In this document: piece by piece, positions 9,540-39,481 of the stretch
How positions within the stretch are numbered: the first letter of the stretch is position 1
Layout: each line of letters begins with the position of its first letter
Assembly (NCBI RefSeq): GCF_964275005.1
Contig: NC_092706.1
Coordinates: 22,909,187-22,973,186 of the forward strand
DNA: 64,000 bases
From: Diadema setosum
Taxonomy: Eukaryota > Echinodermata > Echinoidea > Diadematoida > Diadematidae
Reading direction: 5' to 3'
The notes under the pieces: model-generated
What the model saw: the letters and a program-made list of their open reading frames with translations, nothing else
Databases searched by the model: none
What the model was told of the DNA's origin: nothing
Position numbers and translations under genes: made by a program

Positions 9540-9548
9540 ATCGAAAAC
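9540..9548. repeat. Left target-site duplication, ATCGAAAAC
   Basis: The nine bases ATCGAAAAC lie directly before the left terminal repeat and again, in the same orientation, directly after the right terminal repeat (39473-39481). A direct 9-bp copy at both outer borders of an inverted-repeat structure is what a cut-and-paste transposase leaves. Confidence 0.85.
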
Positions 9549-10150
9549 GGTAGGCACTTTTGAGGCGAGAATGCTCTGCGGGAAGTAGTTTCACCAAAGG
9601 TCACAGATATTAATTATTCATGAGCTGGCGCGCTGACTGCCGAAGCCTTATTGAATATGTATGAGGTGGGAAATTCCCTGTTCCCCTGCGTTATAAACGT
9701 ACACCACCGAGTGTACGTCATGTAAACACATTTTGCTTGCACAGTTGCAACAGTATGTGTATGTGTGTGTGTTTGTGTGTGTGTGTGTGTGTGTGTGTGT
9801 GTGTGTATTTGTCCGTCTGTCTGTCACTCACTCGAGGGATGTCCATCAACGACTCACCCTTGCTGACATCCCGAAGATTCTGTACAAACATGGTTTGACG
9901 ATGAGTTTGATCGTCATTGTGGTAAGTGCGTTTGAAGGGGGGTGAGAAGATTCTTCAAATAAATACTTTTAGTAATGCCTAGTTGTTATTTTTTATTTTT
10001 GTTTTGTTTGGGGGGTGGGTGGGTAAAATGGGCTGGGTCAGAAAACACAGAAAAGTACACTTAATAAAATCAGTCATTCTCTTAAGTTCTAATTGAATCG
10101 AAGTTCATCTCAATCAACCGTTAAAAATGACAACGTCTATAGTAATACAT
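9549..10150 (+). repeat. Left terminal inverted repeat
   Basis: Runs from GGTAGGCAC to the first satellite monomer. It matches the reverse complement of 38995-39472 plus 37036-37192. By eye the outer ~220 bp are identical; after the GT tract (9745-9807, shorter than its partner) I find two substitutions in ~110 bp (CATCAACG versus CATCGACG; ATTCTGTAC versus ATTCTCTAC). It also includes a G-rich tract at 10008-10024. Confidence 0.9.
9668..9700 (+). promoter_or_regulatory. kB-like palindrome and TATA-like box in the terminal repeat
   Basis: GGGAAATTCCC at 9668-9678 is a perfect palindrome fitting the GGGRNNYYCC consensus for NF-kB/Rel; a TTATAAACG block follows at 9691-9699. Both are preserved in the right terminal repeat near 39350 and 39327. 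Promoter function is an inference. Confidence 0.3.
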
Positions 10151-37050: not shown

Positions 37051-39472
37051 TTAACGGTTGATTGAGATGAACTTCGATTCAATTAGAACTTAAGAGAATG
37101 ACTGATTTCATTAAGTGTACTTTTCTGTGTTTTCTGACCCAGCCCATTTTACCCACCCCCCCCCCCAAACAAACAAAAAATTTTAATTAAAAACTAGAGA
37201 TTGTAATTTGTCATCACTGACAAATTAAGGTGATCCGATCTTTTTTTTTAATCAATGATTCAAGTCCTGATCGCAATAGGCATGACCATGCAGGTTTCAT
37301 CTGTGGTCAGAGACATTGGCCGTGTGATGTTTGGATTCTCATTTAGAAAAGGGAGTCATATCTGCTATCTTTGGTACCAAATCTGTATACACTATAACGA
37401 AGATACAACAACAAGTACATATGACCTTTGACCCCACTTTGCACAACCTAGATGGCATCTGAGCAAAAAGTGGTTATTTTGTGAAATTATCCTTGTAACA
37501 TGATCTTTGCGTGTGCAAAATATGGGAAAGATAGGACATGTATTCACCAAGATACAGGATGAAACATTTATGACCTTTGACCCTAATTTACATACCCAAG
37601 ATGGCGTCTGATCAAGTAGTTGTTATTTTATGAAATAATGTTCGTGACATGAACTAAACATGTGCAAAATATGGTGGTGATAGGGTATGTTTTTCTTGAG
37701 TTATTGCATACAAAGTTGCAAAAAGAAAGAAATATTTCAATACATCGAAGATAAACTTTAATTTCAACCAAGTTTTTTGACGTGATCCCGACATCGTATG
37801 AAAAAACGAAGGACACACTTACGATAGCCTAAAGTCTCAGCTACAACATATCAAAATCTTGTAGAAATTCACCGAAGCATAAGTGAGCTAGTGCTCGATA
37901 AAGATAGTAATGTCAATTTTCATTTCCAGAAAAACTGCACTGCCATAGAGATTACACGTAAACTGGTCAAATTTGACAAGGTTACTTTCAATCCATTTTT
38001 ACGAGGTGATGCCGTCATTAAATCAAAATTGTGTTTTTACATTTATGAAAGAACATTTCATAAGCTACAACATATTGAAATTTGGGTGAAAAATGGCAAA
38101 GGATAAGTGAGATACGCTCGAGTAAACTTGGAATTTGATGACGTCATTTTGAAAATTTACTTTTTTGACTTTATTAAGAAATTTGATATCTTTTAATCAT
38201 TTTGTAAGCATAGCCAACCCATGAAATAACATGTACAACTCATCAGCTTTCAGAATATGTCAAGAAAATGGGGGGTCACCGTCCATCCTGACGAGTAAAA
38301 TCCGATTTAAAATTGGCGGTTGTTTGGCATAGTTGCACTGTGTATCCCCATTGACGCACGCGCGGAATTTTGAGTTTGACGGGCCCGTATGACGTCATAT
38401 TGAGTCGGATCGACTTGAAACTTGGTAGAAATATTCCTTGACATTTTGGACATCCCATCCGTGTAAAAAAACTGAAAATTTCTATTGCATACTAGCTGTG
38501 CGTGCGAATATGTGCGCGCGCGTACGCGTCCGTCCAATTTTTTCAATTTTTCAAAAAATGCTCCAAATGATCTGAAACGTGTGCAGAAAAATTTTGAGCT
38601 CGATTTGAGCATACAAATATTTTAACGCGCGCGTACGCGCGCGTTTTAAGATAAATATGAATTTTTGAGAAAATGAGTAGAACCCGCTTGACTTGAAATA
38701 TATGTGACGTAATTTACATTAAAAAATTCCATTCCATTTATGAGATATGCATGAAAATGTGTTTTCATATAATGACGTCATAGTGACGTCACGGTCGACT
38801 GATCACTATGATTTTACTTGCGCTGTCGTCTTTGCGACATGATACATATATGGTATAAGTTTGACATTGATAGGCAATGCACTTTCTGAGCTTACTCTTG
38901 CACAACTTTTGCGGAGAAATAAAGAAATAAAGAAAGAAGAATAAAGAATCAGTACAGATACAGAAGGTGATCCGAGAGGATACTCGGATCACCTAAAAAT
39001 AACAACTAGGCATTACTAAAAGTATTTATTTGAAGAATCTTCTCACCCCCCTTCAAACGCACTTACCACAATGACGATCAAACTCATCGTCAAACCATGT
39101 TTGTAGAGAATCTTCGGGATGTCAGCAAGGGTGAGTCGTCGATGGACATCCCTCGAGTGAGTGACAGACAGACGGACAAATACACACACACACACACACA
39201 CACACACACACACACACACACACACACACACACACACACACACACACAACACACACACATACACATACTGTTGCAACTGTGCAAGCAAAATGTGTTTACA
39301 TGACGTACACTCGGTGGTGTACGTTTATAACGCAGGGGAACAGGGAATTTCCCACCTCATACATATTCAATAAGGCTTCGGCAGTCAGCGCGCCAGCTCA
39401 TGAATAATTAATATCTGTGACCTTTGGTGAAACTACTTCCCGCAGAGCATTCTCGCCTCAAAAGTGCCTACC
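37036..39472 (-). repeat. Right terminal inverted repeat, with insertion
   Basis: 37036-37192 and 38995-39472 together are the reverse complement of 9549-10150. The ~1.8 kb between them has no counterpart on the left. The AC tract at 39181-39266 is longer than the GT tract of the left copy. Confidence 0.9.
37193..38994. mobile_element. ~1.8 kb Helitron-like insertion in right terminal repeat
   Basis: The left terminal repeat serves as the empty site: AAATAACAACTAGGC is continuous there but split here. The insert starts ACTAGAGATTGTAATTTG, has AGGTGATCCGA near its left end (37229) and ends in a perfect hairpin GGTGATCCGAG-AGGATA-CTCGGATCACC (38966-38993) followed by TAAAA. No target duplication beyond A-rich bases is evident. 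Terminal hairpin and lack of duplication fit a non-autonomous Helitron; internal sequence (TGACCTTTGACC motifs, CG-rich tract at 38510-38645) codes for nothing recognisable. Confidence 0.65.
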
Positions 39473-39481
39473 ATCGAAAAC
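39473..39481. repeat. Right target-site duplication, ATCGAAAAC
   Basis: Same nine bases and orientation as 9540-9548. Confidence 0.85.

Follow-up and report, generated by a model that had tools for sequence, protein, structure and literature searches.

The Foldback elements of Drosophila (FB and FB-NOF) and the TU elements of sea urchins have short repeat units, and TU elements make an 8-bp target-site duplication and have 15-bp outer repeats. Closer to the present case, as far as the available parts of the sources cited here go, are Rehavkus, Tm1 and Tetris. Rehavkus makes a 9-bp duplication, has a PHD finger in its transposase and mini- or satellite repeats near its inverted ends (PMC6446971, PMC10218199); in Rehavkus-1_TC of Tribolium, which is 9.5 kb long, the inverted termini contain a 164-bp satellite unit (PMC10218199). 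Tm1 and Tetris, which are of the Mutator/Foldback type, have composite inverted ends, a variable number of tandem repeats and duplications of 8-10 bp (PMC3169594, PMC4079207), and the non-autonomous Tetris has repeats of about 220 bp that seed satellite DNA (PMC4079207). Here, we describe a 64,000-nucleotide stretch of the sea urchin Diadema setosum (the window; contig NC_092706.1), in which positions 9540-39481 are very probably a single insertion of a giant, non-autonomous DNA transposon of fold-back build, by inference of the Mutator type (Mutator-like element, MULE) and closest in build to Rehavkus.

The anatomy of the element is given in Table 1. An earlier note on this DNA had described a 9-bp duplication in direct orientation, inverted ends with nearly identical terminal repeats of about 600 bp, and satellite arms inverted relative to each other, and all of these are borne out. 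The duplication is exact, as the copies of ATCGAAAAC abut the tips GGTAGGCAC... (left) and ...GTGCCTACC (right) from outside. When 9549-9993 is aligned to the reverse complement of 38995-39472, 445 left positions align with 2 substitutions and one length difference in the (TG)n tract, and the similarity picks up again inward (9994-10116 / 37059-37179). The insert that splits the right repeat, which the earlier note had not mentioned, is unmatched in five of the six other copies read and has a diverged relative in the copy C24b; at its right end lies a hairpin, AGGTGATCCGAG...CTCGGATCACCT. Every satellite unit of the left arm contains a doubled 21-bp motif.

Table 1. Features of the element at 9540-39481 (positions in the window).
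Positions	Strand	Feature	Basis
9540..9548	+	Left target-site duplication ATCGAAAAC	Direct read; set against those of 27 other pairs
9549..10116	+	Left terminal inverted repeat, tip GGTAGGCACTTTTGAGGCG..., holds (TG)n tract	Alignment of both repeats
10117..16841	+	Left satellite arm, 223-bp unit, 30.3 copies	Tandem-repeat analysis
16842..32573	.	Core, 15.7 kb	Comparison of copies
18025..20419	+	Local tandem repeats of ~330-360 bp, in core; matched in 6/6 other copies read	
19131..19445	-	Reverse transcriptase fragment (by eye of the non-LTR type, i.e. without long terminal repeats), probably a nested retrotransposon remnant	RVT_1 E=0.007, 16.5 bits, curated cut-off 29.6
22824..23101	-	Last exon(s), PHD-type zinc finger and stop; two matched parts in different frames	tblastn
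24386..24505	-	Exon, ULP1 domain, catalytic Cys region by eye; in-frame TAG 24455-24457	tblastn
26165..26302	-	Exon, ULP1 domain, catalytic His region by eye; in-frame TAG 26243-26245	tblastn
28221..28346	-	Exon, ULP1 domain	tblastn
30752..30898	-	Exon, start of ULP1 (C48) domain	tblastn
31795..31890	-	Possible first exon, as annotated in Diadema setosum P0002	tblastn
32574..37058	-	Right satellite arm, inverted 223-bp unit, 20.2 copies	
37059..37179	-	Right terminal inverted repeat, inner part	Alignment
37180..38994	.	Nested 1.8 kb insert splitting the right terminal repeat	
38995..39472	-	Right terminal inverted repeat, outer part	Alignment
39473..39481	+	Right target-site duplication ATCGAAAAC	Direct read

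The tip pattern GGTAGGCACTTNNGAGGCGAG was searched on both strands of the Diadema setosum assembly (912,680,840 bases, 102 contigs) with at most one mismatch. It gives 32 forward and 35 reverse matches, 67 in all, against 0 + 0 for the same pattern written backwards. These ends can be joined into 29 converging pairs, whose distances run from 15,442 to 43,014 bases with a median of 23,394; nine ends are unpaired. Thus, the loci with the same ends that the earlier note had proposed to look for do exist, and 15 of 28 pairs compared have perfect duplications, all different. Most tips are of the types TTTTG and TTAAG, a few are TTATG, and the pattern has no match in viral contigs. Even the shortest of the 29 pairs exceeds 15 kb, in a search that is blind to short copies with more diverged tips. 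The window element thus belongs to a family with some thirty members, all of them very large transposons.

Target-site duplications are found in most of the pairs compared. Among 28 pairs, the nine bases outside the tips agree at all nine positions in 15 (all different), at eight in two, at seven in two and at five or fewer in nine. This agreement is not due to chance, as none of 600 non-partner flank combinations (from 25 pairs) reaches eight or nine of nine, while 17 of the 28 true partners do. One low-scoring pair, C4 7.33, would agree if one extra base were allowed (CAATGCTGC / CAATGGCTGC); in C13 26.44 the right tip is mutated and the flanks mismatch even when read directly. The pairs without duplications may be explained by recombination between copies. 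The 29th pair, on C8, was read by eye and is a family member nested in the tip of another. Its outer element is flanked on both sides by ACCTAGATC, and the inner one by GCACTTTTG and GCACTTTTTG, which differ by one extra base. A palindromic element of ~360 bp with the 8-bp duplication TGCCTACC is located at the right end of this inner element (G000:C8:14318960-14369253).

Empty sites are seen for the copy C2, which is 25.9 kb long, has the duplication CACTCTCAA and sits within a short dispersed repeat. When its flanks are joined with a single CACTCTCAA, all 40 scored places (of 861 candidates) run through the junction at 97-100%. Therefore, the complete 25.9 kb unit entered known sequence and created the 9-bp duplication. 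For the window copy, a search of the same assembly for the empty site matched only its own two flanks, which are single-copy. The element inserts as one unit between its tips, making a 9-bp duplication; the different duplications within the family, the colinear cores and the empty sites of C2 uphold the proposal of a single mobile unit that moved as a whole.

Seven copies were read (the window, C10a, C2, C1a, C24b, C5 and C10c). The core of C10a, which is on another contig, is 99.2% identical to that of the window over 15,788 bp, with 0.24% substitutions. C2, C1a and C24b cover 97-99% of the window core at 94-97% identity, while C5 and C10c match it in the opposite orientation, and part of it is absent from C10c. 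Outside the exons, divergence among the seven ranges from 0.24% to 2.9%. In 24 elements (25 rows, since one is split in two) a core segment of 1.4 kb is present; 19 of these are complete pairs and five lie beside an unpaired tip. Five elements are ~100% identical across this segment, which speaks for recent activity of the family, with some copies probably very young.

The whole element contains a single stop-to-stop frame of at least 120 amino acids (121), which matches no Pfam family. However, tblastn with Diadema, Holothuria, Apostichopus and scallop proteins defines a series of at least five minus-strand exons in the core. The joined exon peptide matches the Diadema setosum proteins P0001/P0002 and has further relatives in Holothuria, Apostichopus and scallop. 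Over three segments, the identity of P0002 to the exons of the window is 100%, 98% and 100%; a fourth gives 87.5%, owing to a differently drawn exon border. The terminus of P0002 coincides with the stop read in the window. These relatives combine a C48 (ULP1) domain with a PHD finger, and in the Apostichopus proteins (781-841 amino acids) the relic module corresponds to the C-terminal part; one of these, P0005, has a MULE domain (E=1.4e-12), C48 (7e-18) and a PHD match that stays under the cut-off. A PHD-type exon is present in all seven copies, with a weak Pfam PHD match in the window (E=0.06) and a better one in the relative P0003 (E=2.8e-5). An exon for the DDE or SWIM region was found in none of the seven copies. 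Reading 22.6-32.5 kb in six frames, with stops written as X, missed the exons that tblastn later found; the sole Pfam match of these reads, baculovirus Orf78, was rejected as chance, since it is below cut-off and lies in a repeat tract.

The gene is broken. The in-frame TAG at 26243-26245 is common to all seven copies and the one at 24455-24457 is shared by two of them (the window and C10a). One position of another relic exon is a stop in two of six copies, and the two parts of the last exon lie in different frames in the six copies where both match. Among exon sites, 20/809 are variable, compared with 714/14,929 across the whole core, but 261 of 4,861 sets of randomly chosen segments vary as little; since, in addition, 16 of the 20 changes are non-synonymous, we see no sign of protein-level selection. 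Judged by its relatives, the relic is the C-terminal ULP1-PHD module of an animal MULE transposase, stop-broken and without a DDE domain, and it looks like a passenger.

A 9-bp duplication as the modal length, inverted tips and a relic of a MULE transposase together suggest a Mutator-type element moved in trans. Two MULE traits are present, the duplication of ~9 bp and the terminal inverted repeats, which many but not all MULEs have, and one, an own DDE transposase, was not found in the seven copies read. We do not file the family as autonomous MULEs, because those copies contain only the C-terminal ULP1-PHD module and no DDE or SWIM exon; as a non-autonomous MULE, it would be moved by a MULE transposase. 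The earlier note had named the duplications of about 9 bp made by Mutator-like elements; the link through the ULP1-PHD relic and the missing catalytic domain are additions to it. The superfamily itself, with no DDE domain present, is assigned by inference, and the 8-bp duplication of TU elements does not fit. We suggest that a MULE transposase supplied in trans would recognise the tips, perhaps the arm repeats too, cut out the whole element and insert it elsewhere.

When the genome was searched with P0005, 54 matches came from the 58 candidates scored out of 196. All 23 scored matches to the PHD module belong to the family, 18 within a pair and five beside an unpaired tip. The remaining 31 matches concern the DDE and SWIM parts and are spread over 14 loci, none of which is closer to a tip than 860 kb and one of which is on a tipless contig; among the candidates scored no family element with a DDE domain was found in the assembly. 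Multi-copy matches to MULE DDE and SWIM regions are found at C4:22.228-22.241, C8:15.234-15.248, C3:14.619-14.633, C7:12.541-12.559, C10:10.639-10.654 and C10:25.266-25.298 Mb; these loci span about 13-31 kb each, have no ULP1-PHD match, and may represent another family of large MULEs with introns. A further locus, L066 (G000:C1:5504000-5510500), has MULE-type DDE and SWIM-like exons with an open frame of up to 516 amino acids, far from any tips, and is possibly a domesticated transposase.

Fold-back structure arises in several superfamilies (PMC4079207), and a fold-back element of another one (P/Galileo, hAT or TU type) could have captured a piece of a MULE transposase, with no DDE domain present to decide. 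We consider this improbable, as the modal duplication is exactly 9 bp (perfect in 15 of 28 pairs), as described for Tm1 and Rehavkus, and as every scored match to the PHD module belongs to this family.

It is also conceivable that two independent short fold-back elements moved the host DNA between them; in Drosophila, segments of hundreds of kilobases have moved between foldback elements (PMC6431247), and the core here has no long open frame. However, no host source locus was seen. Beyond the 24 elements that hold the 1.4 kb core segment, only one 96-bp match at 76% exists (all 26 candidates scored). Further, all 29 pairs span more than 15 kb, in a search that would overlook short units whose tips have diverged, and the core contains a transposase relic that, among the candidates scored, is matched in this family only. 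Composite mobility is thus largely refuted, and we give it very little credence. Large inverted tandem-repeat arms are generally prone to assembly error, but a local inverted duplication or an assembly artefact, which the earlier note had named as what could undo its reading, is refuted for the family by 29 pairs, 15 of 28 of them with perfect and different duplications, and by the empty sites of C2, so that we attach practically no weight to it.

The satellite arms are present in the inverted ends of all seven copies read, and at ten of ten further end loci a satellite match lies at most about 2.4 kb from the tip. Across 254 full units from the seven copies, the mean difference is 5.2% within an arm and 5.9% both between the two arms of a copy and from copy to copy. 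Units that hold the same rank in opposite arms are closer to each other in four copies and not in three, and a mirror order of units between the arms was rejected because of this inconsistency. Arm length differs among copies with nearly the same core. The left and right arms have 30/20 units in the window and 12/48 in C10a, despite the 0.24% difference between their cores; therefore, the arms change faster than the core mutates. This is probably due to unequal recombination or gene conversion, through which the arms would grow, shrink and perhaps exchange tips.

The tips were compared over 406 columns. The left tip of the window (win_L) equals C10a_L, win_R is 2 differences from C10a_R, and win_L is 5 from win_R. 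C8a_L equals C1a_L, yet C8a_L is 24 from C8a_R, and C1a_R is an outlier, at least 50 from every other tip. The tips look mostly inherited arm by arm, with some closest to tips of other copies. In the five copies with ~100% identical core segments, the tip types are TT/TT (window and C10a), AA/TT (C10 12.18) and AA/AA (C9 7.24); in the fifth, C4 17.12, the left tip is AA and no intact right tip was found. This is a hint of tip exchange. We tentatively propose, as an idea more likely wrong than right, that the satellite arms are a working part, either as repeated transposase sites or as a recombination platform, which could let a coding-dead element of 15-43 kb move and renew or swap its tips. 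An 8-mer shared between tip and satellite occurs in 124/1000 shuffles and is not notable; two separate shared 8-mers occur in 18/5000 dinucleotide shuffles, a post hoc test that gives a lead only. A genome search with the satellite gave 311 matches (19 of 78 candidates scored), and among the matches listed all are in or beside family elements save one at C20:30.544 Mb. There, a 223-bp satellite array (G000:C20:30544035-30544921) lies away from the listed tips and is a degraded copy or a free array.

Several points weigh against the interpretation of the element and its arms given above. There is no clear duplication in nine of 28 pairs, and 10 of 29 pairs, which are 15-22 kb long and have AA-type tips, are without the 1.4 kb core segment, interiors being known from the seven copies read. 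Variation in the relic exons is slightly lower than in the core as a whole. As the search with P0005, within the candidates scored, found no transposase source with the family tips, the assignment to MULEs depends on the duplication of 9 bp and on a relic that was possibly captured. For the arms, the motif common to tip and satellite is weak, the hint of tip exchange comes from two neighbouring bases within the 40 bp known in key copies, and outside these the tips seem to be inherited arm by arm, as in win_L and C10a_L.

With its long inverted ends of tandem repeats in variable number, the family belongs to the Foldback structural class. Its 9-bp duplications and 223-bp unit set it apart, by description, from the sea urchin TU elements. 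The fold-back build itself is common to the family, Drosophila FB / FB-NOF and TU (PMC4079207). With Rehavkus it shares the 9-bp duplication and satellite-bearing inverted ends, and its PHD-type exon may correspond to the PHD finger of the Rehavkus transposase. It differs in its size of 15-43 kb, its arms, which reach about 48 units among the copies read, its echinoid host, ULP1 and lack of a DDE domain. We call it Rehavkus-like in build and do not file it in Rehavkus, since clade assignment needs the DDE domain that is absent from the copies read. Tetris has inverted repeats of up to 1,735 bp (PMC4079207) and Tm1 a repeat unit of about 14 bp (PMC3169594), compared with 223 bp here, and the available parts of their descriptions mention no ULP1-PHD relic (PMC3169594, PMC4079207). 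ULP1 has been described in plant Kaonashi/KIU Vandals and in Mutators of hydra and lancelet (PMC13317346, PMC2836005); the plant KIU elements, however, are without terminal inverted repeats. It is also found in the transposon protein of Ginger1, together with PHD in one Ginger1 family, but Ginger1 has 4-bp CCGG-type duplications and a Gypsy-type integrase, unlike the 9-bp duplications here (PMC2836005). Short related repeats, some inverted, lie at 802-1388, 4343-4909, 27466-28034 and 43658-44002 of the window, that is, within the core and at several places outside the transposon. Two further features beyond the element, a palindrome at 61799-61979 and an inverted repeat at 48691-49386, may be small transposons.

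The giant Polinton/Maverick and Teratorn elements and the large Helitrons have different enzymes and ends. The family shares the large size of these other giant DNA transposons (PMC6431247), but holds no intact gene in the copies read. Pack-MULEs of one survey reach up to 7 kb (PMC6431247) and complete arthropod MULEs 1.9-10.0 kb (PMC13359780). Thus, the earlier remark that the element is far larger than its described relatives holds against the MULEs of at most 10.0 kb in the available parts of PMC6431247, PMC13359780 and PMC10218199. We found no description of the family in the literature on giant, fold-back or ULP1-bearing MULEs, in a search that left most subscription papers and Repbase outside. 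Precedents for the build are known (Rehavkus, Tetris, Tm1); what has no counterpart in the available parts of the literature searched is the size, the long satellite arms with a dead ULP1-PHD cargo, and the fast arms beside a stable core.

An animal family of Mutator/Foldback type thus occupies about thirty sites in units that measure 15-43 kb. Most of them bear marks of insertion and some are apparently very young, and the copies read have no catalytic gene. It ties the growth of satellite DNA directly to transposon ends, and its copies form a natural series in which satellite turnover can be measured.

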